A stretch of 27,157 nucleotides of DNA, taken from positions 1 through 27,157 of IMG/VR virus record IMGVR_UViG_3300006875_000127; one strand, 5' to 3'. Positions 7,164 to 27,157 of the stretch are shown here, piece after piece. The notes beneath the pieces are model-generated. The model saw only the letters and a list, made by a program, of their open reading frames with translations, had not been told where the DNA came from and made no database searches. Origin of the DNA: a virus. Every line of letters begins with the position of its first letter. Position 1 is the stretch's first letter. Position numbers and translations under genes: made by a program.

Positions 7164-8822
7164 TTAGATAACGTTTGTATCGGCTACGATAACGCGACCG
7201 TAGAATTCCGGACGAACAAGCTTCATAGCGTAACGAGTCATGATACCTTTTCTAGGAGTGAAGGTATTAGGATCGTACACAAGCGGAGTCATGATCAATG
7301 GAACGTAAGGAGCGTATACAGCACCGCACTCAAGGAATTGAGTTCCACGGAAACCAAGAAGGATAACGTTCTCAGTCATATAAGGATTCTTATAGACTTT
7401 GTAACGGCTATTCAAACTACCGATTTTTTGTACACCAAAAGCATACTTCATTGTATCAGCAGCTCCGTCAGTATCAGCAGCAAATCCAGGAATTGATTCG
7501 AGGATTGTAGCGATAGTAGGAGATACTACCATGAAGTTAGCACCACCGCGTAAAGTACGTTGGTGGATTTGGTTAGAAATCTTTTGGAGTTTGATACCCA
7601 AAGTTTGGAACCAAGTCATTTGTGTGTAATAAACACCAGCAGTATTGGAATCAAACTCAGTGTATGATTTATTGATTTGGCTACCAACTTTAGCTGACCA
7701 GTATTCTGTACCGGCGCCAGCATTTTGGATCAACATATCAAGTACTTCAAGATCGATTTCCAATGAAACGTGCTCAGAAAGAAGACCTGTCAATTCAGCT
7801 TCAGCATCAAGTGCGTGATAAGCATTGAGGTCTTGAGCGAATTCTGGAGTCCACTGAGCTTTCAACTTACGAGTTTTAGCAGAAATGGTCTCAGATCTCA
7901 TACCAACGTTGATCTCAGGGATAACGATTGATGAAGGAGAGTATACATTAGGAACTGATGGAGTAGATGAACGATCTTCGAAATCGCCACGGCTATTGAA
8001 ATCAGTCTTTTTGTTATACCAAACTGTAAACGCAGAAGTCAATGTGGGGATTTCCGCAGTTGATGCAGTAACAAAGAAATTAATATATCCAGATGTGTAA
8101 GTCGCATAATCTTGATAGTTTTTAGCTACAGTTACAGATCCTGATGCTATAGCGAAAGCTCTAACACCTAGATCATTGATATCTGAAGATATGCTTGATG
8201 TAGCAACTGTTAATTTCTTAATGTTACCTGCAGCAACAGAAGCAGAAAGATCAGCATTGAATCCAACATCTGCCCAAGAAGCAGAAGCAGCAGTAACAGT
8301 GAGTAAAGAAGCGCTGAATTGGTTAAGTGAATAACCAAACTGACCAGCTCCGTAAAGACCGCCTGCAGCAGCGTTACCGAAGTTAGCAGTAGCAGTACCA
8401 TAAACTGACTGTCCAGATGTGAAATTAGGATTACCAGCAGTTCCGTATTGGAAATCCAAGAAGAATACTAAACCTGCAGGAAGATTCATTGGCTGAACGC
8501 TAACGAATTCTTTAGCTGCGATTTGTCCGAAGATCTTACGAACCAACGGAAGAGCAACACCAGCCCATTGTTCACCAGAACCAGGAGTGAAAGTTGCACC
8601 AACGCCAGTACCAAGACCAGCAGATGTTTGAGAAGACTCGACTACAAGTTGCTTTGCTTGATTTTCGAGGATAACGGCCATTGTAGAGCGATCGTGATCG
8701 CTAAGGCCTTCAAGAAGACCAGATTTTGCCCACTTTTTAGTAAGTTTAGAGGCAACGCTATACTGGTCGGAGTAAGCTGTTTGAGCTGACTCATTGAGTA
8801 GTGATTGTACTAAATTTGCCAT
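7164..8822 (-). CDS. gp23: Major capsid protein (T4 gp23 family)
   Basis: A 552-aa protein (T4 gp23 is 521). It shows gp23 landmarks: an N-terminal segment with LENQAKQLVVE (about 52-62), the F-V-S-V-Q-P-M-N-L-P-A-G block (about 106-117), TRKLKAQWTPEFAQDLNAYH with A-E-L-T-G-L-L-S-E-H, and the C-terminal VYAPYVPLIMTPLVYDP and GIMTRYAMKLVRPEFYGRV. In T4 the first 65 residues are removed by the prohead protease after an L-x-E. Here Glu62 (L-V-V-E before SSQTS) is the positional equivalent, although V-V-E departs from the L/I-x-E rule. Codons are richer in GC (about 42% in a sampled line) than in most neighbours, as expected for the most highly expressed gene. It lies 21 nt after the scaffold gene, with an A/T-only leader and no Shine-Dalgarno sequence. 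Confidence 0.95.
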   Translation of the reverse strand: MANLVQSLLNESAQTAYSDQYSVASKLTKKWAKSGLLEGLSDHDRSTMAVILENQAKQLVVESSQTSAGLGTGVGATFTPGSGEQWAGVALPLVRKIFGQIAAKEFVSVQPMNLPAGLVFFLDFQYGTAGNPNFTSGQSVYGTATANFGNAAAGGLYGAGQFGYSLNQFSASLLTVTAASASWADVGFNADLSASVAAGNIKKLTVATSSISSDINDLGVRAFAIASGSVTVAKNYQDYATYTSGYINFFVTASTAEIPTLTSAFTVWYNKKTDFNSRGDFEDRSSTPSVPNVYSPSSIVIPEINVGMRSETISAKTRKLKAQWTPEFAQDLNAYHALDAEAELTGLLSEHVSLEIDLEVLDMLIQNAGAGTEYWSAKVGSQINKSYTEFDSNTAGVYYTQMTWFQTLGIKLQKISNQIHQRTLRGGANFMVVSPTIATILESIPGFAADTDGAADTMKYAFGVQKIGSLNSRYKVYKNPYMTENVILLGFRGTQFLECGAVYAPYVPLIMTPLVYDPNTFTPRKGIMTRYAMKLVRPEFYGRVIVADTNVI

Positions 8823-8843: not shown

Positions 8844-9905
8844 TTATTTGATTCCAGCTATTTTTTGCCATCTAGAAACAAACGGATCTGCTTCTATAAT
8901 AGGTTTCCTATCGGCAACGCCTACTGGTTTTGAGGCGAACCCTTTTGATTCTGAAATTTGAGACTTTTTGGGTTGGATAGTCTCTTTCAGTGTTTCGTAA
9001 ATATTTTTAGCTTCTTTTACATTAGATGCACGATCGAGAGCTGTAACAACATTTACTTTTTGAGATTCGGTAAGATTTCTAGACTTGAAAATCTTATTCA
9101 TGTAAAGAAGTTTTGCATTCAATAGATTAATTTCATTAAGTTGATCACGAAGCGCATTAATAGTTTTATTAGCTTCACTTAAACTCTTTTTCATTTCTTC
9201 CATTTTCTTGCCTTCTTCTTCTTTAGTTTTTTTCTTTTCGTTAACTATAGCTTTAGACTCTTCTTCTTTGGCTTTAGTTTCTTCAAGACTAGCTAAGATT
9301 TCATCAAGATCAATATCTTCACCTTCTTCTCCACCGCCTTCTTCGGCTGCAGGCATTTCGTCAGTAACTTCTTCGCCAGCATCCATTCCAGGCATAACAG
9401 ATTGAAGAACTTGCTTAAGATCTCCTAATGTGATATCGATTACTTTCGTATCATCATCAGGAGCTTCTTCAGTAGCTTCTTCTCCATCTTCTTCTTCACT
9501 TTCTTCTTCACCCTCTTCTTCGCCTTCTTCCTCTTCCTCTTCGTCGATTTCTTCGATTTCAGGTTTTTGTTTTCCGGCTTTGTAATCGGGTGAACCAGAC
9601 TCTTCTTCAGAATCTTCTTCTGATAAATTGTCAAGTTCGGCTAAAATTTCTTCGAGAGTAGCTTCGTCCATTTCTGAATCTCCCTCTTCCATTTTTTTGC
9701 CTTCTTCTTTTGGTTCTGCATCAGCATACTCATCAAGTTCTTTTTCTTCGTCTAATTCCTCTTCGATTTTTTCAGATAGTTTTAAACGAATCATCTCTTG
9801 AATTTTTGGTTCAAAAGCTTCTTGAAGACTTGCTTTAGCATTTGCCATCGCGCTAGCACGCACTGCTTTAGCGTCCAAAAGCGCTTGCTTGTACATTTCT
9901 TCCAT
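8844..9905 (-). CDS. gp22: Prohead core scaffolding protein (T4 gp22-like)
   Basis: A 353-aa, strongly acidic, helix-forming protein immediately upstream of the major capsid gene and downstream of the protease, the T4 21-22-23 order. It begins with a helix (MEEMYKQALLDAKAVRASAM), followed by long Glu/Asp-rich stretches (about 65-160, with near-homopolymeric E/D runs), a coiled-coil part (about 200-265), and a conserved-looking C-terminal module (ESQKVNVVTALDRASNVKEA, about 283-302). In T4, gp22 forms the core around which gp23 assembles and is then degraded by gp21. It is longer than T4 gp22 (269 aa), mainly through the acidic region. The identification rests on context and composition, not on sequence identity. 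Confidence 0.85.
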   Translation of the reverse strand: MEEMYKQALLDAKAVRASAMANAKASLQEAFEPKIQEMIRLKLSEKIEEELDEEKELDEYADAEPKEEGKKMEEGDSEMDEATLEEILAELDNLSEEDSEEESGSPDYKAGKQKPEIEEIDEEEEEEGEEEGEEESEEEDGEEATEEAPDDDTKVIDITLGDLKQVLQSVMPGMDAGEEVTDEMPAAEEGGGEEGEDIDLDEILASLEETKAKEEESKAIVNEKKKTKEEEGKKMEEMKKSLSEANKTINALRDQLNEINLLNAKLLYMNKIFKSRNLTESQKVNVVTALDRASNVKEAKNIYETLKETIQPKKSQISESKGFASKPVGVADRKPIIEADPFVSRWQKIAGIK

Positions 9906-10045: not shown

Positions 10046-10681
10046 TTATGAGTTTACGCAACAGTATCCTCCCATGTTGCAAATTATATCTGATACTAAC
10101 CTATTAGCTCTATCATATTTACTTATGTAATTAGGAGAATAATTATATGATTCGTTTATACCTGCTACAGGTCTAACGTATGCTCCAAACGTTGATGGAG
10201 TTGATACAAAATCCCAACATATTAATTCTAAATCGTCTTCTACTTGAACAAGACCTTCGCCGATTGGCGAAGTTGATCCCATCGCTCTCGAAGAAATTCC
10301 GACAGTGATATTGTTTTCAAATAGCTGCCTAAGAATATTACCAGAAGGAGTAGGTAAAATTTCGATATCGCCGTATAAATTTTTTCCATCCCACCAAAGT
10401 TTGAGTATATTGTGAGAAACATTTTTAAGATTTATAACTGATGTTTCTGGATGATCTAATTCTCCTAAAGCCCTATTTTCAGTTACTGGTCCTTTGATAT
10501 ATAATTCTACTTGTGATTTTAAAGTTTCATATGGATATATTCTTCTATTCGCGTTTGGTTTATCACACGCTTGAACCAATCCTGACACAACCATATTATT
10601 AGATCCATTTCTAGTGGATTCTAATATTACCTTTTTTGTAGGAGTAAATAGGTTATGTTCTATTAATAGTAGTTTATTCAT
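10046..10681 (-). CDS. gp21: Prohead core protease (T4 gp21-like serine protease)
   Basis: A 211-aa protein (T4 gp21: 212) with the prohead/herpesvirus-assemblin type protease core. It has a His in GELDHPET (His77), the catalytic-serine segment TVGISSRAMGS (about 127-136, Ser130/131), and a downstream F-V-S-T-P-S-T element (about 158-164). An R-x-Y-P motif (NRRIYPYETL, about 45-54) is also typical. It cuts scaffold, capsid and internal proteins during head maturation; the T4 enzyme prefers L/I-x-E sites. That matters here because many proteins in the window carry such a site near the N-terminus. The gene itself begins MNKLLLIE, with L-I-E at residues 6-8. It sits 4 nt after the 532-aa gene and before the 140-nt gap. 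Confidence 0.92.
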   Translation of the reverse strand: MNKLLLIEHNLFTPTKKVILESTRNGSNNMVVSGLVQACDKPNANRRIYPYETLKSQVELYIKGPVTENRALGELDHPETSVINLKNVSHNILKLWWDGKNLYGDIEILPTPSGNILRQLFENNITVGISSRAMGSTSPIGEGLVQVEDDLELICWDFVSTPSTFGAYVRPVAGINESYNYSPNYISKYDRANRLVSDIICNMGGYCCVNS

Positions 10682-10685
10682 TTTA

Positions 10686-12284
10686 TTATGCTTCTATTAC
10701 GTCTATTGGTGTATCTGGGCTTACTTTTGCTTTAGCTCTTGCTTTATCTACAGCAGCTTTTTTTTGTGGATCTGTTGCGCATTTTGGTACAGTAACAGAT
10801 AGTTTTTCTTTAAGTGTTTTTTTTAAAAATTCTTTGAGCTTAGCATACTTATCTTTTTTCTCCATCATCGTAAAAAACTTCGCACTTATTTTTCTATCTT
10901 GAGGAGCGTAACGATTCCATATTTCAGTTGCTTTTTCAGCGCCTATAGATTTAGCCAATGTTTTGAGTTGATATTCCATAGATTTTTGAGCATCCCATTT
11001 TCTAGAATCATCACTCATTTCAGCATACCAATCATACTTTTTCATTAAATCTTCAAACTTAGACTCATCACCCATAGACGTTTTCATTTTTTCAAATGAA
11101 CCTCCTAAATCAATACCACTAAGATTGTTTGTTTGGTCGTCTCCCGGTAACGTGATTTCGTTTGTCGACTTATTTTTTTCTTCTGCGGCTTTATCTAGAA
11201 TATTTACCTGATAATCTTTTTCTTCGCCGTCGTCCAATTTTACTGTAATGGTACCGCCGGTGATGGATACCACTTTTCCGGGTCCATCTGGAGTAGTTAC
11301 ATCATGACCTTTTGTGTATTTAAAATGAGAATCTTCGTTTAGAGTTTTTTTTATACTAGATATAATTGATTCTAATACTTTTTCTTTGCCGGGCATATCC
11401 ATTACAGCAGAGATTCCTTTAGCTTTTTTTGGAGTAATTGCCATTTCTTTTACTCCTTTTGGTTTACCTTTTTTATTCTCTTTTTTTGATGATGGAGTAG
11501 CTTTTGCAACTTCTTGACCCTTTATTTTTTCCATCGAATTTTCTTTATCAGTATGATTTTTACCGTTAACAGGAATCATTTTTAAAGATTCATCTTGCTT
11601 AGCAATGTCGGCATAGTTAGCTATTACTAATTCTCTATAGGCATTAGGATCTTTTTTCATTTTTTTAGCAACCTTCTCTAAAAGAGCTGGTAATTCACTA
11701 TCATTCATGGTTGGATTTTGCTCGACTTCAAAAGCGACTGCTCTTAAAAATGTAGTAAAATTAACATTATCAAGATCTCTAAAACGATCGTATTCATCTT
11801 TTCCAGTAGCTTCTTTATATCTACCTTCTATTTTTTCTGCAGCTTCATTTAGCTTTTCTGTCATTCCTGGAAATCCTGCGGGATGCTTATCATCTTTATC
11901 ATCCCACATTCCATCGGTTTCTCTTCTATACGTGTCTTCATCATGAGACATTTGCTTTTCTGTCTCTGCATCTAACCAGCCATCTTTCCATAAATCTGCT
12001 TGTTCAGATCCTGGTTTAAACGGACATTGGTTTATTTTATACCCTTCATGATTTTCATCATATCCTACTGTATAAGGATCACTACGATCTAATGATTTAC
12101 GATCCATGTTAAGATCTGTATTCTCTCCAATAATTCTTTTACTCTTAAGAATCTTAATAGCGTCATCTACAGATGTTACTGGGGATACGTATTGAGGAAA
12201 CTGCATGCGAGCATTTCTAACGAAATTGTCTCTTGACATTTTTCCTTCTAATAGAGCTTGGTATTGTTTTGTTATATTTTTCAT
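10686..12284 (-). CDS. Uncharacterised head-module protein with KOW-like segment, 532 aa
   Basis: Not assigned to a named family. It starts MKNITKQYQALLEGKMSRDN, an amphipathic helix ending in L-L-E (11-13), which may be a prohead-protease site. The N-terminal region (about 20-55, FVRNARMQFPQYVSPVTSVD) looks well conserved; the centre (about 60-320) is charged and probably flexible. A small SH3/KOW-like beta segment lies at about 326-361 (GHDVTTPDGPGKVVSITGG, TVKLDDGEE). The C-terminus is helical and very basic/Lys-rich (SVTVPKCATDPQKKAAVDKA). It lies between the portal and protease genes, where T4 has its small core genes 67 and 68. A prohead-core or internal-head role is therefore plausible but inferred only from position and the L-L-E site. 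Confidence 0.7.
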   Translation of the reverse strand: MKNITKQYQALLEGKMSRDNFVRNARMQFPQYVSPVTSVDDAIKILKSKRIIGENTDLNMDRKSLDRSDPYTVGYDENHEGYKINQCPFKPGSEQADLWKDGWLDAETEKQMSHDEDTYRRETDGMWDDKDDKHPAGFPGMTEKLNEAAEKIEGRYKEATGKDEYDRFRDLDNVNFTTFLRAVAFEVEQNPTMNDSELPALLEKVAKKMKKDPNAYRELVIANYADIAKQDESLKMIPVNGKNHTDKENSMEKIKGQEVAKATPSSKKENKKGKPKGVKEMAITPKKAKGISAVMDMPGKEKVLESIISSIKKTLNEDSHFKYTKGHDVTTPDGPGKVVSITGGTITVKLDDGEEKDYQVNILDKAAEEKNKSTNEITLPGDDQTNNLSGIDLGGSFEKMKTSMGDESKFEDLMKKYDWYAEMSDDSRKWDAQKSMEYQLKTLAKSIGAEKATEIWNRYAPQDRKISAKFFTMMEKKDKYAKLKEFLKKTLKEKLSVTVPKCATDPQKKAAVDKARAKAKVSPDTPIDVIEA

Positions 12285-18201: not shown

Positions 18202-19491
18202 CTATTGTTTGAATATCCTACTACGATACCACACACCATTACAATAAATTCTCACATAGTACATTCCTGTAGGGAAGTTAGTTAAATCAATGTGGATTTG
18301 ATTACTACCCGCAATGGCTGTCATAGTGAATTGTGATACCATATGATATTGTGAGTTGTAAACATATACACGTACTGTACCACCTGTAGTCAAATTCAAT
18401 GTTACATTTGAACCTGTTGATGTTGGGTTAGGGTATGCTGTTAAATAGTTATTTGTATTTGTTGAATAGGGATACGTAGTATCTCTTGGTATTCTTACGG
18501 TATCACATTTTTCAGCAATACAATTTGGATAAACCATTCTCAAACATACTCGGTACAAACCAGGGTACATATACCTATGGTGTGGATTGTATGCACTATC
18601 TGCTGTACCGTCACCAAATGTCCACCTAACGCTTGTTGGATTTGATGTACTAATAGTTGTATTTGTAAAATGTACCAACCCTCTTGATGTGTCTCTGGTC
18701 CAAGTATAATTTGCGGGGAAGTTACAAGCGGTTGAAGAGCAAGTATTCATCACCATATACCATTGACTCCATGTCCGAGTGATACAGTTATAGTGTGCGC
18801 TGTCCTTTATGTAACCAGTAGTTCCGGCGAATGTACAATTCCTATATCTGAATGTATCTCTTTCAGTACATGGTGTAGTGTTGTTGTTTGGAATAACAAT
18901 CGAGTCACATATATCAGTAAAGCAAGAAGTGTATTGAATCCGAAGGCAAACTGCGTATATGCCAGGATGGGTGTATGTATGGTGAGTACCATATCTGGAT
19001 GCAAATGCTGTGTCCATAGTACCATCACCAAATGTCCACTTCACTTTTACCAATGTACCATTTGCGGTTGTTGGAGTTGTATTAGTAAACCAAACAGTTC
19101 TATTGTTGCTAGTGTCTAATACGGAGTAGAAACTTGCTGGCGTATTGCATGGAGTACCGGCCGTTTGAGCGATTTGAATAACGGTCCCAGTCGAATCATA
19201 ACACCACATAACACTTCCGTTGTATCTTCTAATAATATGCGATACCCAATATGTGCCATTGTTTGCGTATGTGTGAACTGGGTTTGGCAGTGATGAACTT
19301 GTACCATCACCAAATATCCAAAGGTGGTATGTGTAGAGCGAATCACCAACTACGCCTGGGAAGAATACCACTGTTGATTGAGAAGGTCTTGTAGTGGTAA
19401 ATGCAGCTGAACACCCTGTTGGTGGCGGTGTTTGAGCTAGTGAACTGATTGCCAAAGCCAATGCAACCAAAACCGAATAAAGTTTTTTCAT
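18202..19491 (-). CDS. Secreted PKD-repeat protein with T9SS C-terminal sorting domain (phage-borne)
   Basis: A 429-aa protein with a Sec signal peptide (MKKLYSVLVALALAISSLAQ, cleavage near 18-20). It has three PKD-type repeats with the W-x-F-G-D-G-T core: 58-84, 152-183 and 290-317, each ending with a Y-x-x-x-G-x-Y strand. The C-terminal about 80 residues (about 350-429) match a Bacteroidota type A sorting domain: Y-P-N-P (353-356), V-R-V-Y-V-Y-N, then L-T-N-F-P-T-G-M-Y-Y-V-R-I-Y, ending in R-I-F-K-Q. Such domains guide proteins through the type IX secretion system to the outside of the cell. It is unusual in a phage and has higher GC (about 42% in a sampled line) than its surroundings, which suggests acquisition from a host. 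It may coat the infected cell, change adhesion or block further phage. Several Cys are present, possibly disulfide pairs. Confidence 0.9.
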   Translation of the reverse strand: MKKLYSVLVALALAISSLAQTPPPTGCSAAFTTTRPSQSTVVFFPGVVGDSLYTYHLWIFGDGTSSSLPNPVHTYANNGTYWVSHIIRRYNGSVMWCYDSTGTVIQIAQTAGTPCNTPASFYSVLDTSNNRTVWFTNTTPTTANGTLVKVKWTFGDGTMDTAFASRYGTHHTYTHPGIYAVCLRIQYTSCFTDICDSIVIPNNNTTPCTERDTFRYRNCTFAGTTGYIKDSAHYNCITRTWSQWYMVMNTCSSTACNFPANYTWTRDTSRGLVHFTNTTISTSNPTSVRWTFGDGTADSAYNPHHRYMYPGLYRVCLRMVYPNCIAEKCDTVRIPRDTTYPYSTNTNNYLTAYPNPTSTGSNVTLNLTTGGTVRVYVYNSQYHMVSQFTMTAIAGSNQIHIDLTNFPTGMYYVRIYCNGVWYRSRIFKQ

Positions 19492-19525: not shown

Positions 19526-19918
19526 TTATGGGCAATTCGTGCTATCAGCCCCCTCTTTCCAGAAATTTCCTGTATAGGTTCCACCAACGCTAGTTGTGGT
19601 CAATTTCATCAGGTTGCAATTACAGCCAAATTCAACATATGATTTTACAATAGTGCTGCCACTTATCTTTACACAAAGAGAATCTCCTTCCATCCACCAT
19701 TTATGTGGGTTGGGTATGGCATCAGCAATGGTTCCGAACTGACCATTTGTCGAGTAGATGGTATATTGCAAACTATCTTTGTATTCATAAAGGGTATTGC
19801 CAAGCGGGCCAATCCATCTTCCTACAACAGTGCAGTTGGGCTGTACGGATGAGGATTTCTCACATGCGGTTAGGGCTGTCAGGAGACAAACTAATAGAAC
19901 AAAATAAACTTTTTTCAT
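19526..19918 (-). CDS. Small lipoprotein, 130 aa
   Basis: It starts MKKVYFVLLVCLLTALTAC with lipobox L-T-A-C and Cys19 as the lipidation site. The mature part (about 110 aa) looks like a small beta-barrel/lipocalin-like lipoprotein (TVVGRWIGPLGNTLYEYKDS, then SLQYTIYSTNGQFGTI), with C-N-C and a final Cys. The sequence context and GC level (higher than the phage average) match its neighbour at 18202, so the two were probably gained together. Phage lipoproteins often act in superinfection exclusion (for example T5 Llp) or as outer-membrane spanins. It lacks the short, Pro-rich look of many o-spanins, so exclusion or surface modification is the more likely role. This is inference. Confidence 0.8.
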   Translation of the reverse strand: MKKVYFVLLVCLLTALTACEKSSSVQPNCTVVGRWIGPLGNTLYEYKDSLQYTIYSTNGQFGTIADAIPNPHKWWMEGDSLCVKISGSTIVKSYVEFGCNCNLMKLTTTSVGGTYTGNFWKEGADSTNCP

Positions 19919-20373: not shown

Positions 20374-20574
20374 TTAGAGATATTTAGAGTATTTCTTTCT
20401 AGCTTCTTTTTGATCTTCAGGACTTAATTGATTAAAGATATTTCGGAGTTTAGTCTTATCATAATAGTCACTGCCTTTTTCATATTGTTTGATAGCGGAT
20501 TCTAAATCTGATATTGGTTTAAAATTAGATTCTTTCTCTTCGGCTATCATTTTTATTATATCTTTTAATTTCAT
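20374..20574 (-). CDS. Small charged protein with capsid-targeting-like N-terminus, 66 aa
   Basis: It begins MKLKDIIKMIAEEKESN. The first 12 residues form an amphipathic helix ending in I-A-E, the same final tripeptide as the T4 internal-protein targeting peptide (MKTYQEFIAE). The rest is charged and helical (SAIKQYEKGSDYYDKTKLRN, then LSPEDQKEARKKYSKYL). It lies inside the membrane-protein cassette but has no signal peptide or TM helix, so it may be a small internal-head protein or a regulator. Gaps are 14 nt and 12 nt on either side. The function is unknown. Confidence 0.65.
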   Translation of the reverse strand: MKLKDIIKMIAEEKESNFKPISDLESAIKQYEKGSDYYDKTKLRNIFNQLSPEDQKEARKKYSKYL

Positions 20575-20586
20575 TATATATTGAAT

Positions 20587-20925
20587 TTAAAAATTGTAAC
20601 GATCTTTAAAAAAGCTATCTACTTGATTTGGTGTAAATTTTCTAGCGTTATCGCCTTTTTCTTTATACACCTCTTTAATGATAGTAGTTTTACCTTTGTT
20701 ATTATCTAATCTAGTATTCAATTCTATGATTTGTTGATCAAACTCGTATTGAAGACTATCAAATTGCAGTATGTAAAATTCTAGCTCTTTATTTTTTTCT
20801 TCTAAGCTATCAATACGACTAATCAATGCTTGATCTGGTTTGTATTCTTTTGCAGGAAATAAATCTGGTAGGAATATGTAGACTAAAATTAGTCCTACTA
20901 AACCGTATAATATATATCTATCCAT
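20587..20925 (-). CDS. N-anchored coiled-coil membrane protein (i-spanin-like)
   Basis: A 112-aa protein with an N-terminal TM helix (about 5-24, ILYGLVGLILVYIFLPDLFP), then a charged coiled coil (about 34-75, IDSLEEKNKELEFYILQFDS), and a C-terminal F-T-P-N-Q-V-D-S-F-F-K-D-R-Y motif. This topology (inner-membrane anchor, periplasmic coiled coil, no signal-peptide cleavage site) is that of an inner-membrane spanin, which works with an outer-membrane partner to fuse the membranes at lysis. The nearby lipoprotein or the exported coiled-coil protein could be its partner. No sequence identity to Rz is claimed. Confidence 0.7.
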   Translation of the reverse strand: MDRYILYGLVGLILVYIFLPDLFPAKEYKPDQALISRIDSLEEKNKELEFYILQFDSLQYEFDQQIIELNTRLDNNKGKTTIIKEVYKEKGDNARKFTPNQVDSFFKDRYNF

Positions 20926-20928
20926 ATT

Positions 20929-21657
20929 TTATTTGTTTTTAAATGTTTTTGGATTGAATTTTTTAAATGATAAACCCTTACCTGATGGATCATATATGAA
21001 TCTTCTTACTTTATCTTCGTAAAAATCAGGTTCTAGAGCAATATATATTTTATTTTTATATTCTTTTCCAAAATGTAAAATTTCTTTTTCATCGCTAACA
21101 AAAAATATTTTCAGTACCTTTGAATTTATTAAAAATTCAGTATCAGTTAAATTAGTAACTAACATTCCTTCACCAGCAAAATCTTGACCTGTTCTGTGGT
21201 CATATGTCCAACTTTGAATAGGTGATCTTGGTTTATAGTCAATCGGTTTTTTATATAACCAATAGTCTTCTTTTAACCGAGTCCAATCTTGTATTTTACT
21301 GCTTCTTAACTGAGATAGGGTTGCTTTACTTATATCTCCAACTCCTCTATACACTACAGTTCCGTTAGGAACATTGGGTTTAAATATTATAGGGTATTTT
21401 TTTTTGAGTTGAAACAGTTTATCCTTAGCTTTAGTAAGAAACTTCATTGAGTAAGAAGGCATACTTGTCCAATCATTTAAAGCATCGTATAAATCATTTT
21501 CAAATTCTGTGTTAGGTTCTGATTTGGATTTGTAACCTTGTAATTTTGCGAAAGCTGGATCGTTGTCTAAGTCAGCGAAAACAACATTACCGAGAGGTTT
21601 AGTTGCGGTAGCGTTGTCGCTCATTTCCTTTTCTGTCAATATATCTAACAGTTTCAT
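20929..21657 (-). CDS. Putative ADP-ribosyltransferase, possible internal head protein
   Basis: A 242-aa protein with the R-S-E signature of arginine-type ADP-ribosyltransferases in the right order. It has Y-R-G (Arg104 in TVVYRGVGD), then a Q-S-W-T-Y segment (Ser149 in SPIQSWTYDHRTG, the S-T-S equivalent), then E-x-E (Glu190-Lys-Glu192 in SDEKEILHFG, with the usual following I-L). In T4, Alt, ModA and ModB modify host RNA polymerase and ribosomal proteins, and Alt is injected from the head. The N-terminus MKLLDILTE ends in L-T-E, a gp21-type cleavage site, so it may be packaged like Alt, but the call rests on motif spacing alone. It overlaps the upstream gene by 1 nt (TAATG). Confidence 0.62.
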   Translation of the reverse strand: MKLLDILTEKEMSDNATATKPLGNVVFADLDNDPAFAKLQGYKSKSEPNTEFENDLYDALNDWTSMPSYSMKFLTKAKDKLFQLKKKYPIIFKPNVPNGTVVYRGVGDISKATLSQLRSSKIQDWTRLKEDYWLYKKPIDYKPRSPIQSWTYDHRTGQDFAGEGMLVTNLTDTEFLINSKVLKIFFVSDEKEILHFGKEYKNKIYIALEPDFYEDKVRRFIYDPSGKGLSFKKFNPKTFKNK

Positions 21658-22025
21658 TAGCTTTCTGTTTCTTCTGTTTCATCATCAGTAGAGGGATTTT
21701 CTACTGCATCTATTTTCTTTTTAAGATCTTTTATTTTTTGTGGAAGATTTCCAATTGCTTTTTTGTAATCTGAAATGCTACCTTTCATTTTTCTACCTGT
21801 TGGAGTATCTTCTGTGTATTTAAAAATTACGTCTTTTACTTTAGCTTGTAAAATTTTTAATTCTTGTTTATACTTATCCAGATTTCTCATATCCTTTTCC
21901 GTAGATTTCATGTCCGATTTCTTAGGTTCAGGAGTCTCATCAGGATCTACGTCTTCTATTATTCTAATCTTACTTATTAATGTAAGATTATTTTCTATGA
22001 GATATTTTTGTAAATTAAAAGACAT
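21657..22025 (-). CDS. Uncharacterised coiled-coil protein, 122 aa
   Basis: Not recognised. It begins MSFNLQKYLIENNLTLISKI, with L-I-E (9-11) and a second I-I-E (22-24) near the N-terminus, both fitting the prohead-protease rule. An acidic Pro-rich segment (DVDPDETPEPKK) follows, then a Lys-rich coiled coil (about 45-105) and an acidic tail (STDDETEETES). It is 2 nt from the 558-aa gene upstream and overlaps the putative ADP-ribosyltransferase by 1 nt (TAATG), so the two are translationally coupled. It could be a partner, inhibitor or packaging adaptor of that enzyme; this is inference. Confidence 0.65.
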   Translation of the reverse strand: MSFNLQKYLIENNLTLISKIRIIEDVDPDETPEPKKSDMKSTEKDMRNLDKYKQELKILQAKVKDVIFKYTEDTPTGRKMKGSISDYKKAIGNLPQKIKDLKKKIDAVENPSTDDETEETES

Positions 22026-22027
22026 TG

Positions 22028-23704
22028 TTATGCAAATTCTATTTCTTGTGTATAAACTTCTTCAGGAACTTCAACATCAATTCCCATTGCAGTTAGCAAA
22101 CCATTAATTCCTGATTTTATCAATTCTATAAAGTATTCAATTTTTTCAAGTATCCACTTATATAGATTTTCTATTTTCTCTTTAATAAAATTTATTGCTT
22201 TATTAAACCAATTTTCATATAATTCTATTTTATCTTCATTTAACAATCCTTTATTTTTTTTAGATTCAAATGCATTATACGCTTCTCCTAATTTTGATGT
22301 CTTATTAATTATATCTTCTAAGCCTATTCTTAGTGATGAATAGAAAGAATATCCTACTTTTTCACCACCTTTTTTATAACTAGTACTTTTCATTGTGACA
22401 GCGAATTTGACTTTTCCGAGTATAGAATCTATTGCTACACTTTTTTTACTTGTCATATCTTTTAATACAGCAGTAGAAGCATCTCCGGAAATCGCTAGAA
22501 CATAATTCGCTTCTGCTGGGGATTTTTTACCAAATTTAGTGAATCCCGATGCCGCTTCGTACACAAACGCTCTTTTAAATTCAGGACTCTTATTGAATTG
22601 CTTTTCGATATATTCCATAAACTCTTTATGTGCAATTTGAGCGTCGTCATATATTTTTCGCGCTTTTTTATTCGTTGCGTCTAATTCTGCTTTTGGAGAT
22701 TTTGATAACTGTTTAGTATTTAAATCGCTTGTTCTTGTTTTTCTTGCAAAACTTTGTATTATATCAATAGCCTTATTTTCAGCTGTTTTTGAAATACCCG
22801 ACATTTCTGCAGCCGCCATGACAGTAGCTATTGCTTCTTTTGGTTCTGGGCTCATTAACTGAGAAGCTCCTTTTTTTACTGAAATCCTAAAAGAACTGTC
22901 TTCTGACTTTATGTCGGTTTTTGGCTCATCAACTTTTTTAGTACCATGTGCATCGTGCCAAAATTCTGTTACTGCGTCTTTTCGTTGTGAATATTTCGCT
23001 AATTTTTGTTTTGTTTTTAGTTGATTTTTAACTATTTTTTTTATCGATTGAAAAAGATTTTCATATTGTTTATATCCTTTAGGCGCATTTTCACTTCCTG
23101 CGATTGCTGCGTTCCATAAATCAACTGAGATCTGTTCAAATTTAGATGCGCCCTCTTTTCCTTCTATTAGTTGCGTTAATATTTTTTTAGATTCTTCTAA
23201 AGTCTCAGTTTCTTCTTCACCGCCCCCTTCTTCACTCCCCGTTTCAGAAGTTTCTGCTGGTGGTATTTCTTCTGCTGATCCTGTTTCTGCTTCTCCCGCT
23301 TCTTCAGCTCCTTCCCCGCCCTTTGTTTTAAGCGGACTTCCCCATCTAAGCAATCTACTAATTGCCAGCATTGCTCTTTGTTTTTCTCCAGCCATAAATA
23401 ACAAGTAATTCTTTCCTCCGATTGTTGCTTGATAAGTTTCTCCCATATATGTCATAAAAAAGTATTGTCCATTATGCAATACTATTTTAAACATTGTGGG
23501 TTTAGGCGCTATTATGTATATCGCAGTTAAATATTCTTCAAAATTGTCTCCAAGTAAATATTCTAAATTCTCTCGTAAACTTTGATACTTCTTAAGGATA
23601 AATCCCATAGGATCATCCTCAAAAGTTTTTGGAGGCGTTTTCATAACCTCCTCCTGATCTTCGTTTATTAATTTCTTTAATATTTCTAATTCATCAAAGT
23701 TCAT
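22028..23704 (-). CDS. 558-aa protein with PD-(D/E)XK-like motif and acidic linker, possible internal head protein
   Basis: A multi-part protein. The N-terminus (MNFDELEILKKLINEDQEE) has an L/I-x-E site (I-N-E, 13-15). Residues about 40-120 form a small alpha/beta domain (MFKIVLHNGQYFFMTYMGET); 128-172 are Glu/Gly-rich and probably disordered. Residues about 190-460 contain PKTDI (261-265) followed 10 residues later by ISVKKG (274-279). This P-D/T-D...S-x-K arrangement is that of PD-(D/E)XK nucleases, with Asp264 and Lys277 as candidate catalytic residues. A second conserved-looking block follows (AFVYEAASGFTKFG, 379-392). The C-terminal about 80 residues are amphipathic helices. Similar proteins are, from memory, present but unannotated in marine T4-like phages. 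Nuclease activity is unproven. It overlaps the upstream gene by 11 nt. Confidence 0.7.
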   Translation of the reverse strand: MNFDELEILKKLINEDQEEVMKTPPKTFEDDPMGFILKKYQSLRENLEYLLGDNFEEYLTAIYIIAPKPTMFKIVLHNGQYFFMTYMGETYQATIGGKNYLLFMAGEKQRAMLAISRLLRWGSPLKTKGGEGAEEAGEAETGSAEEIPPAETSETGSEEGGGEEETETLEESKKILTQLIEGKEGASKFEQISVDLWNAAIAGSENAPKGYKQYENLFQSIKKIVKNQLKTKQKLAKYSQRKDAVTEFWHDAHGTKKVDEPKTDIKSEDSSFRISVKKGASQLMSPEPKEAIATVMAAAEMSGISKTAENKAIDIIQSFARKTRTSDLNTKQLSKSPKAELDATNKKARKIYDDAQIAHKEFMEYIEKQFNKSPEFKRAFVYEAASGFTKFGKKSPAEANYVLAISGDASTAVLKDMTSKKSVAIDSILGKVKFAVTMKSTSYKKGGEKVGYSFYSSLRIGLEDIINKTSKLGEAYNAFESKKNKGLLNEDKIELYENWFNKAINFIKEKIENLYKWILEKIEYFIELIKSGINGLLTAMGIDVEVPEEVYTQEIEFA

Positions 23705-24158
23705 GATATCCTGTATTAGCTTGATCTATATAATTTTGTGCTTGAGAAATGTGATCTTGAATCCATCCTGGAAGGTTAATTTCATTAGTTCCAATTTTTT
23801 GGGATAATTCTGTTGCATTTTTTATTATATCTTGAAGCAGATTTTGCGCCATGCCAACTTCATGATCTTGCGATTGTTGATTCATATCGTCAAATCCACA
23901 TTCGGTACATATTCCTTTTTCCATTATTGATCCACATTCAGCACATATACCTTCATTTTCTTTAATTGGAACGCATTTATCTTTTCCATTTTCTGTACCT
24001 GCATATCTATATCCTCTCCAACATGGTTTACCATCAATGCCTTTTTTCTTTTCGCTTTCGTTTTGAGAAAGTTTCGGTTTAGAGGTTTTATACGTTTTCA
24101 TACCTATATTATAGGCATCTCCCATATTTTCTTTAAGTAGCTCTTTTAGTTTTATCAT
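23694..24158 (-). CDS. Zinc-ribbon protein with capsid-targeting-like N-terminus, 154 aa
   Basis: It begins MIKLKELLKENMGD, an amphipathic helix ending in L-K-E (8-10). A Cys-containing motif (GIDGKPCWRGYRYAGTENGK, 40-59) resembles a block that recurs in phage structural proteins. A zinc ribbon follows with C72, C75, C84 and C87 (CxxC-x8-CxxC). The C-terminal part is helical (NATELSQKIG, then GWIQDHISQAQNYIDQAN). The order is targeting-like peptide, C-W-R-G-Y block, zinc ribbon, helical tail. The function is unknown, but virion association is plausible. It overlaps the previous gene by 4 nt (ATGA) and the next by 11 nt. Confidence 0.7.
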   Translation of the reverse strand: MIKLKELLKENMGDAYNIGMKTYKTSKPKLSQNESEKKKGIDGKPCWRGYRYAGTENGKDKCVPIKENEGICAECGSIMEKGICTECGFDDMNQQSQDHEVGMAQNLLQDIIKNATELSQKIGTNEINLPGWIQDHISQAQNYIDQANTGYHEL

Positions 24159-24454
24159 GATCCATAATAGTTTTTTATATACTCTGGATATTTGGTTTGT
24201 AGAGTGTTTAGCAGCGTTGCTTTTGTGGATCTCAATGCTTTTAGACTCATTAAAATGTCTTTATCTTTTATAGAATGCTTTTTTACAGCGCTATTGAGAT
24301 CACTAATTAGATCATTAATATTTTCTATGATGCCAGAAAAATCTGGATAGTATTCGACATCCCACGATATTTTTCCAGTTTCAGGATCAACACCTGTTTG
24401 TGTTGTCTTGAATTCTGTACCAGACATTTCTAATAATTCTTTAAGACTTTTCAT
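24155..24454 (-). CDS. Uncharacterised small protein with capsid-targeting-like N-terminus, 99 aa
   Basis: It starts MKSLKELLEMSGTEF, sharing the M-K-x-L-K-E-L-L core with the next gene and ending its first helix in L-L-E (7-9). A short beta-type stretch (TGVDPETGKISWDVEYYPDF) is followed by helices (NINDLISDLNSAVKKHS, LMSLKALRSTKATLLNTL). No catalytic or metal motif is seen. Start and stop are well placed: a 3-nt gap upstream and a 4-nt overlap (ATGA) downstream. It is likely a small internal or core protein if the targeting model is right; otherwise unknown. Confidence 0.65.
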   Translation of the reverse strand: MKSLKELLEMSGTEFKTTQTGVDPETGKISWDVEYYPDFSGIIENINDLISDLNSAVKKHSIKDKDILMSLKALRSTKATLLNTLQTKYPEYIKNYYGS

Positions 24455-25814: not shown

Positions 25815-26384
25815 TTAAACTTCAGTGTTTTTCATTTTATCTAAATAACTCTTTATTTCTTCGTACATTTTCTTTTTATCTCCGCCTGCCCAGTTCTCAA
25901 TATCTCCTCCTTCAGTGACTATAGTATCTCTATCTTTATACCATTGTTCTAATGCCATCTCGATATCGCTTAAATTTGCATTTTTATTTTTATTAATCAT
26001 CTGTTTTTCATAATCTTCCCATTTACCTGAAATTTTCATCTGCGTTTCTTCTTTAATTACGCAATCGAAACATTTTTTATGCGTTGAATACATCTTTTTA
26101 TTAATTTCGTTAACTTTCATAGCTTTTGCACACGATGGACAAGTTATCGGTAATACTACTAACTTTTTTATAGAATCTAATTTTGTAATTGTTTGCTTAA
26201 TACCATTTTTTATAGTCCACGTTTTACCCGATTCTTCCCAAACATCTCCTTCTACATGATCAGAATAGTGCTTATCCCAACCAGACTGTGTCTTGGTTTT
26301 ATCCCCAGACTGTCCAGTTAAAATATTTCTCATTCTTTGTACTGTACTTTTAGAGAATTCTTTTTTTAATGTTGATTCTTTCAT
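25815..26384 (-). CDS. Zinc-ribbon protein, 189 aa
   Basis: The N-terminal half is basic and contains W-E-E-S-G-K-T-W-T-I-K-N-G (about 49-61), a small beta-hairpin-like element. A zinc-binding pair follows, C82-x2-C85 (ITCPSCAKAM) and C105-x2-C108 (HKKCFDCVIKE), spaced 19 residues apart, in a knuckle-like arrangement. The C-terminus is helical and charged (YEKQMINKNKNANLSDIEMA, then EQWYKDRDTIVTEGGDIENW). Such proteins occur in T4-like phages as hypothetical, from memory. It overlaps the HAD-fusion gene by 4 nt (ATGA), which points to coupled translation. It is likely nucleic-acid or protein binding; no catalytic domain is visible. Confidence 0.75.
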   Translation of the reverse strand: MKESTLKKEFSKSTVQRMRNILTGQSGDKTKTQSGWDKHYSDHVEGDVWEESGKTWTIKNGIKQTITKLDSIKKLVVLPITCPSCAKAMKVNEINKKMYSTHKKCFDCVIKEETQMKISGKWEDYEKQMINKNKNANLSDIEMALEQWYKDRDTIVTEGGDIENWAGGDKKKMYEEIKSYLDKMKNTEV

Positions 26385-27157
26385 AATCGAAACTTTTGTA
26401 ATATTGATATTGTTTTATCTACACTTTTGTGCGTTATTCCTATCGCGCCCATTTCTTTCCAAGGCGCTATATTTTTGTAAAAATCGTCTATTAATATGCA
26501 CTTAGAAATCTGTTCTTTTGGCATATTAGATAATATTTCGTGTTTTGCTCCTGTTTGTTTAAAAATAATATCTTGAGGCTCAGGATTTAAATGTTTTTTT
26601 ATCCACAAAAGCTTTCCTTTTTGCGCGTATTTAAAAGTACTTGGACTTGATAATATAATCGGATTGTATTTTGATATATAACTCCATAATTCTTTTGCTC
26701 CTGGAAAATATGGCATATCTGACCAAAATGTTATACCCACATCATCTATTGCTTTCTTAAGCATTATCGATCCCTTTTCTTTATAATATTCTTGAGGAGT
26801 TACTCCAAAAAAATGATCAAATTGAGCATCAAAGTCAGTTAATACTCCATCCATATCACAAAAAATCTTCATTTTTGATGATAAAACTTTTTGTAGTGTA
26901 TTAGTTAAATTAGATTCATATATTAATTCATTTCTTTTGCCATAGTTTCTCATAATAACTCCTGATATAGCATTAGCTTCATTTTCAATATCTGATCCTG
27001 CTGATCCTGCGTGAGGATACATTTTACCGAGTTCATTTTGTCTATGATGCACTAATTCATGAGAAAGAGTTCTTAGTATATCAGCTAAATTTCTATTTCC
27101 AATATAAACTTTTAATGATTTAGGAGTATTTTTATATTCACCAAAACTATGAATATC
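26381..27157 (-). CDS. Metallopeptidase-like / HAD phosphatase fusion, N-terminus beyond window (partial)
   Basis: The frame is open to the right edge (258 residues visible), so the N-terminus is missing. Residues 33-37 are H-E-L-V-H, a zinc-peptidase HExxH motif, with a downstream Glu (E58 or E60 in I-E-N-E-A-N-A) as possible third ligand. From about residue 95 a HAD domain begins: motif I D-M-D-G-V-L-T-D (101-108), motif II region L-S-S-P-S, a Lys-containing motif III, and motif IV I-D-D (223-225). The layout resembles C-type 5'(3')-deoxyribonucleotidases. A GTG at 27052 lies inside the HExxH motif and cannot be the true start. The HAD part could act in nucleotide salvage; the peptidase part is less certain. 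A separate HAD start at the internal Met before K-I-F-C-D is possible. Confidence 0.75.
   Translation of the reverse strand, partial: DIHSFGEYKNTPKSLKVYIGNRNLADILRTLSHELVHHRQNELGKMYPHAGSAGSDIENEANAISGVIMRNYGKRNELIYESNLTNTLQKVLSSKMKIFCDMDGVLTDFDAQFDHFFGVTPQEYYKEKGSIMLKKAIDDVGITFWSDMPYFPGAKELWSYISKYNPIILSSPSTFKYAQKGKLLWIKKHLNPEPQDIIFKQTGAKHEILSNMPKEQISKCILIDDFYKNIAPWKEMGAIGITHKSVDKTISILQKFRL

Follow-up and report, generated by a model that had tools for sequence, protein, structure and literature searches.

Six tagged genes beside terL

We analysed a window of 27,157 bases (positions 1 to 27,157 of IMG/VR virus record IMGVR_UViG_3300006875_000127), a fragment of a T4-like phage in which PHROGs recognise gp23, the prohead protease, the portal and terL. 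An initial annotation had singled out six genes at 20374-24454 that start with short peptides ending in L/I-x-E, and had read them as proteins packaged into the head and injected into the host. All six peptides are true N-termini of minus-strand open reading frames (ORFs), and every one ends in [LI]xE; we refer to them as tags.

20374..20574, minus strand: 66-aa protein; tag MKLKDIIKMIAE at 20539-20574
20929..21657, minus strand: putative R-S-E ADP-ribosyltransferase (ART); tag MKLLDILTE at 21631-21657
21657..22025, minus strand: 122-aa coiled-coil-like protein starting MSFNLQKYLIE; extended tag MSFNLQKYLIENNLTLISKIRIIE at 21954-22025
22028..23704, minus strand: 558-aa protein; tag MNFDELEILKKLINE at 23660-23704
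23694..24158, minus strand: 154-aa protein with a C-terminal DHEVxMAQ domain; tag MIKLKELLKE at 24129-24158
24155..24454, minus strand: 99-aa protein; tag MKSLKELLE at 24428-24454

The capsid targeting sequence (CTS) of T4, MKTYQEFIAE/A (a slash marks the cut, known or presumed), is established on a few T4 proteins. We took as a T4-type CTS an N-terminal peptide some 10-19 aa long that has hydrophobic residues at -6/-3, L/I at -2 and Glu at 0. In T4 IPIII, mutagenesis has shown that targeting depends on residues 4 and 7 and processing on residues 8 and 10 (PMC9026906), and the residues of the window tags match these positions. The same literature yielded an independent pattern, h..h[LI]xE (h, hydrophobic; PMC9026906), which is present in full in five of the six tags; the exception is 24155, with LLE only.

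For comparison we used the best 80 of many relatives in IMG/VR (terL 71-91% identical) and the closest isolates by terL identity, Flavobacterium phage immuto (55.5%) and Microcystis phage Mel-JY01 (50.9%). Two backgrounds served for counts of h[LI]xE: internal stretches of the proteins concerned, and N-termini after shuffling. Five of the 12 genes of the window block carry h[LI]xE within their first 16 residues, compared with 0.3 predicted by the internal stretches and 0.9 by shuffling; none of 300 shuffles reached this count. The block upstream of terL in immuto has the motif in 11/20 genes (expected 0.6 and 1.6, respectively), whereas elsewhere in that genome the count lies close to background (13/187; expected 10.7 and 7.7). 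The difference between block and rest is strong in immuto (p=9e-8), and is not significant in four shorter records taken singly (p from 0.09 to 0.14). With the pattern h..h[LI]xE and family weighting, 27% was observed across 54 families upstream of terL, compared with 1% for internal stretches and 2% for shuffled sequences; 22 families downstream of terL, head genes included, gave 20%, compared with 1% for either control. In the upstream block, the density of the pattern per 1000 positions is 28 at residues 1-10, 19 at residues 11-20 and about 1 beyond, except for small peaks at residues 151-160 and 171-180. We conclude that the excess of the motif at N-termini is not due to chance, and that the enrichment is confined to the block and the head genes. 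The tags lie in the cluster initially described and are not restricted to it: the relatives' block and the head genes are tagged as well, and a membrane-type protein within the interval (20587-20925) has no tag.

N-termini of orthologues differ in sequence and length, yet retain the motif. Homologues of the 23694 protein start with MIKLKEILTE, MSIKLSSLLKE, MNSISFFKALLMKE, MENSLSYYRNILLQE, MKHNVSYYRERLLAE or MINITELKKRLLSE, those of the 22028 protein carry ILKKLINE, ILKTILLQE, ILKRLIAE or ILEILLE, and the 24155 orthologue in one relative begins MKLKDLLE. The 21657 protein has more than 40 relatives, and its type of N-terminal block recurs on four immuto proteins as a longer tag, FDLKKFLVENKLTxNSxLLxE; a second long tag, EIKRMQKLAGIIxE, is found on several unrelated proteins. 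The 20374 protein is the weakest of the six, with no homologue in the relatives' loci examined.

Head genes, virion proteins and proposed capsid targeting

The initial annotation had also placed a gp21-like protease in the same genome, and the PHROG match bears this out. The tag-like starts extend to this gene and to others of the head region:

7164..8822, minus strand: major head protein gp23 (PHROG E 3e-70); MANLVQSLLNE/S at 8790-8822
8844..9905, minus strand: gp22-like scaffold, by its position between the protease and gp23; SLQE/A at 9819-9830
10046..10681, minus strand: gp21-like prohead protease (PHROG head maturation protease, E 4.6e-49)
10686..12284, minus strand: head-region protein starting MKNITKQYQALLE/G (12246-12284)

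The protease begins MNKLLLIE (10658-10681) and has a second site, VILE/S, at 10619-10630, just ahead of the protease domain; its orthologues retain both LxE motifs. The scaffold candidate gave no family match in the PHROG search, and its orthologues retain AL/SL-x-E-A. The N-terminal start of gp23, MANLVQSLLNES, resembles the cargo tags, and the immuto counterpart of the 10686 protein begins MRTLQEKYNAIQE/G. Control sequences from T4 agree, with MAKINELLRE/S in gp24, LIAE-9 in gp22 and LIE-9 in gp21.

Similar starts are found on enzymes detected in cyanophage virions. Mass spectrometry (MS) of CsCl-purified S-CREM2 virions detected a SAM lyase, an APH-like kinase and a cytidylyltransferase (PMC10665884); these begin MKDFDSFLEE, MKRFDAFLTE and MKNFSSFLTE/A, respectively. 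In S-CREM2, the pattern occurs in 4/28 MS-detected non-structural proteins and in 5/167 undetected ORFs (p=0.026 with annotated starts). The pattern with its Glu at residue 10 occurs in 4/28 and 1/167, respectively (p=0.0016), a register picked after inspection of the data. A recount with our own gene caller gave p=0.07; some of its starts are misplaced, and we prefer the count from annotated starts. The cytidylyltransferase T4-GC190 is likewise a cyanophage virion protein by MS (PMC3037559), and in three cyanophages it begins MKKFSAFLNE/A, MKSFGQFLTE/A and MKSFLNFLFE/A. The passages of PMC10665884 and PMC3037559 that were searched make no mention of a targeting sequence. S-CREM2 gp12 (contig L148, 7704-10313), annotated as Cas9 and detected by MS in virions, has a CTS-like LRFASFMAE/A near residue 24; a Pfam search found no Cas9 domain in it, which makes the annotation doubtful.

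We consider it likely that all six peptides serve as capsid targeting sequences, read by the prohead core and the gp21-like protease, as in T4. In this reading, the tag would hold each protein on the prohead core during head assembly, by means of the hydrophobic residues that lie at -6 and -3 relative to the terminal Glu. The protease (10046-10681) would then cut after [LI]xE, releasing the cargo within the head, and the cargo would be ejected together with the DNA when the next cell is infected. By analogy with T4, we strongly infer that the proteins are packaged in the head of the window phage, and we infer their targeting, cleavage and injection. Head targeting is well supported by the statistics, the conservation of the motif, the match to the T4 CTS and the tagged enzymes detected by MS in cyanophage virions; the tagged set exceeds the six proteins first proposed.

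Several observations weigh against this interpretation. The pattern also yields false positives, namely UvsX of phage HTVC008M (MANFLKQIIKE), a putative baseplate-region protein (MAKIDLLRKLIREE) and a 5'-3' exonuclease, so the pattern alone is no proof of packaging. Together with the non-significant comparisons in single short records, the hits on UvsX and the baseplate-region gene would fit peptides that are ordinary amphipathic starts, or helices docking on the baseplate or replisome, and that are unconnected with the head. We regard this as very improbable given the family-weighted frequency (27% against 1% internally), the near-background counts in the rest of immuto, and the tagged enzymes detected in cyanophage virions. 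The authors of the cyanophage MS work note that proteins of high abundance may be purified along with virions. A literature search for virion proteomics of immuto found none, and none exists for the window phage. We also looked for depletion of internal LxE in tagged cargo and rejected it as evidence (pooled 0.84 vs 1.16 and 1.21; family-weighted p=0.36).

The residue at P1' also differs: in this clade N, A, M, V or I predominate, rather than the Ala of T4 and the cyanophages. Cleavage may therefore differ, and is less certain than targeting. The same difference would fit tags that dock on the prohead core as helices and stay uncut, the LxE merely resembling a protease site; an Asp placed at position 10 of the T4 CTS stops processing and not targeting (PMC9026906). 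We think this improbable, because the terminal Glu is retained across highly divergent tags and the protease, the scaffold and gp23 show the same [LI]xE.

Candidate cargo proteins

The largest of the six, the 22028 protein, consists of the tag, an N-terminal module conserved in the family (from 23623 down), an acidic linker and a C-terminal domain. The C-terminal domains of its 45 relatives fall into five multi-member classes and one singleton, and profile comparison found no similarity between classes. The initial annotation had called this protein nuclease-like, and a predicted structure is consistent with that: the model of the window-class domain (approximately residues 186-460; pLDDT 63.8) has the restriction endonuclease MspI (1sa3) as its first Foldseek match (E 6.8e-3, prob 0.97), the runner-up having an E of 1.2. 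Its putative active-site motifs, KTD (22913-22921) and SVK (22874-22882), belong to a KTD...SxK arrangement, SxK being a variant of (D/E)xK, that is conserved in the window class and in Kyanoviridae homologues. Each of the other multi-member classes conserves its own D...SxK; this is suggestive only, because the loose pattern arises in 42% of shuffled sequences. These classes may also be nucleases. A second LxE-type motif, LIE, lies at residues 174-181 (23162-23185), just ahead of the predicted nuclease domain, and could serve as a release site for that domain.

A GTDB scan found no relative of the 22028 family. Homologues of its C-terminal domain are present in Methylophilales phage Melnitz, Pelagibacter phage HTVC008M and Mel-JY01. 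Those of the Melnitz type (Kyanoviridae-like) begin MQGFKTFLSE/A, MQSFNQFLTE/A, MKTFKQYLSE/G or MYTLRQYITE/A, nearly the T4 CTS, and in the alignment this tag occupies the position of an internal ILKE/A in the window family. The HTVC008M homologue begins MLSFTGYSNLSE/A; that of Mel-JY01 has no tag. Genes neighbouring these homologues include a tagged zeta-toxin-like kinase (MIPFILKE/G), a cytidylyltransferase (MKKFSEIIE/A) and an NT5C-type nucleotidase, and these enzymes correspond to genes of the block in Bacteroidota phages.

The 20929 protein has seven homologues (BLAST identity 31-39%), the full-length ones of which retain the tag (MIKLKDILSE, MIKLKSILQE). Residues R104, S149, E190 and E192 are invariant across the eight sequences of the family and lie in YRG (21343-21351), QSWT (21205-21216) and ExE (residues 190-192; 21082-21090), with a spacing that we take to resemble that of the R-S-E ART families. 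The earlier assignment as a putative ART stands on these residues and their spacing; profile and fold searches do not confirm it. Pfam gave no match, and a PDB profile search and Foldseek against PDB and BFVD returned nothing significant or no ART. In hhalign comparisons with T4 ModA, ModB and Alt (prob 0.8%, E 0.068), YRG and ExE do align. We conclude that the protein is probably, on its conserved residues, an ADP-ribosyltransferase cargo like T4 Alt. In relatives the same slot is taken by another tagged protein, which has a motif of GNAT type (RGQGIGKLLY) and on which Pfam is silent; the slot thus looks exchangeable, like the internal-protein loci of T4.

The relatives' block carries tags on further enzymes (a zeta-toxin-like kinase, a cytidylyltransferase and a nucleotidase), and one such enzyme lies near the window edge:

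26381..27052, minus strand: metallopeptidase-like segment and NT5C-type nucleotidase, start uncertain; LIYE/S between the domains

The NT5C match (E 1.1e-4) is below the curated cut-off, and the immuto nucleotidase carries the tag MKKVMGNLADLLLE. In relatives the metallopeptidase-nucleotidase fusion is complete, with HELVHHRQ upstream. The C-terminal 59 aa of the 23694 protein match cyanophage proteins; its connection to the MS-detected S-CREM2 gp160 runs through a chain of partial matches only and was not used as evidence. On contigs L085 and L086, from other phages, several adjacent unrelated genes carry the tags MKLSSRKQLLSEA and MEMTKQRMMKLAGLLTES, and tandem ART-like paralogues are present. 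A protein tagged MIKLINLLIEGG (contig L072, 317-1345) looks nucleotidyltransferase-like by eye (GSSAYF...DVDMM); Pfam gave no match.

The tagged proteins might instead be packaged without being injected, remaining in the capsid with a role in assembling the head or condensing the DNA, as has been proposed for T4 IPIII. IPIII does affect head morphogenesis (PMC9026906), and the 21657 and 24155 proteins are small, with no recognisable enzyme domain. However, the predicted nuclease, kinase, NMN adenylyltransferase and ART domains would have no obvious use in a capsid, and they vary, unlike assembly factors. We therefore consider retention in the capsid unlikely, and favour injection of the enzymes, whose activities we take from their predicted domains.

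Host, known systems and significance

A protein at 18202-19491 ends in a type IX secretion C-terminal sorting domain (Por_Secre_tail E 6.7e-8), which points to a Bacteroidota host. This protein lies next to terL, within DNA of raised GC (0.37-0.40), has a signal peptide and PKD domains, and is apparently a phage protein addressed to a Bacteroidota-specific secretion system of the host; a lipoprotein-like ORF follows at 19526-19918. In immuto, 18607-37015 is annotated with genes for queuosine-type 7-deazaguanine DNA modification (QueC/D/E/F, FolE, DpdA), which could protect phage DNA against a packaged nuclease.

The arrangement resembles T4 IPI-III and Alt in its short N-terminal peptide with hydrophobic residues at -6 and -3, L/I at -2 and Glu at the cut, in the gp21-like protease encoded by the same genome and in an ART-like cargo. 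It differs in that the tags are Leu-rich rather than aromatic, P1' is not mainly Ala, and many more proteins are tagged, clustered beside terL and including a nuclease, a kinase and nucleotide enzymes. The cyanophage virion enzymes (T4-GC190, SAM lyase, APH-like kinase) are likewise unrelated enzymes, with T4-type CTS starts and found in purified virions; their phages infect cyanobacteria. The predicted fold and conserved D...SxK of the 22028 C-terminal domain recall MspI-type restriction endonucleases (PD-(D/E)XK), but this domain has no sequence-level match to them, is fused to a putative head-targeting module and lacks, within the window, any visible methyltransferase partner. Phage effectors of the polyvalent and MuF-fused kinds are also packaged in the capsid and thought to be delivered with the DNA (PMC5512222); they are joined in one multi-domain polypeptide, whereas the candidate cargo here consists of individual proteins, each of which carries one effector and one tag.

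From T4, the CTS and internal proteins were already known. The present analysis adds tags of a leucine type in phages of Bacteroidota, a tagged set of this size and diversity, a connection with the enzymes of cyanophage virions and a tagged protein whose C-terminal domains are interchangeable; a literature search, which covered few subscription journals, found none of these described. As a tentative generalisation, which we hold with rather less than even confidence, T4-like phages at large may load a changing set of host-takeover enzymes, with the CTS serving as the address label. The 22028 protein would then be a head-packed polymorphic effector, with a constant module and interchangeable nuclease domains released at the internal site and injected against the DNA of the host or of competitors.

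The idea is directly testable on existing isolates (immuto, Melnitz and S-CREM2). Should it prove true, with one label shared by dozens of unrelated enzymes in T4-like phages that infect Bacteroidota, cyanobacteria, SAR11 and methylotrophs, the sequence would allow injected cargo to be predicted. It would also account for the recurrent NMN adenylyltransferase, SAM lyase and kinases in cyanophage virions, for which the authors were unable to exclude co-purification. The swappable nuclease-like domains would indicate an arms race in the first moments of infection.

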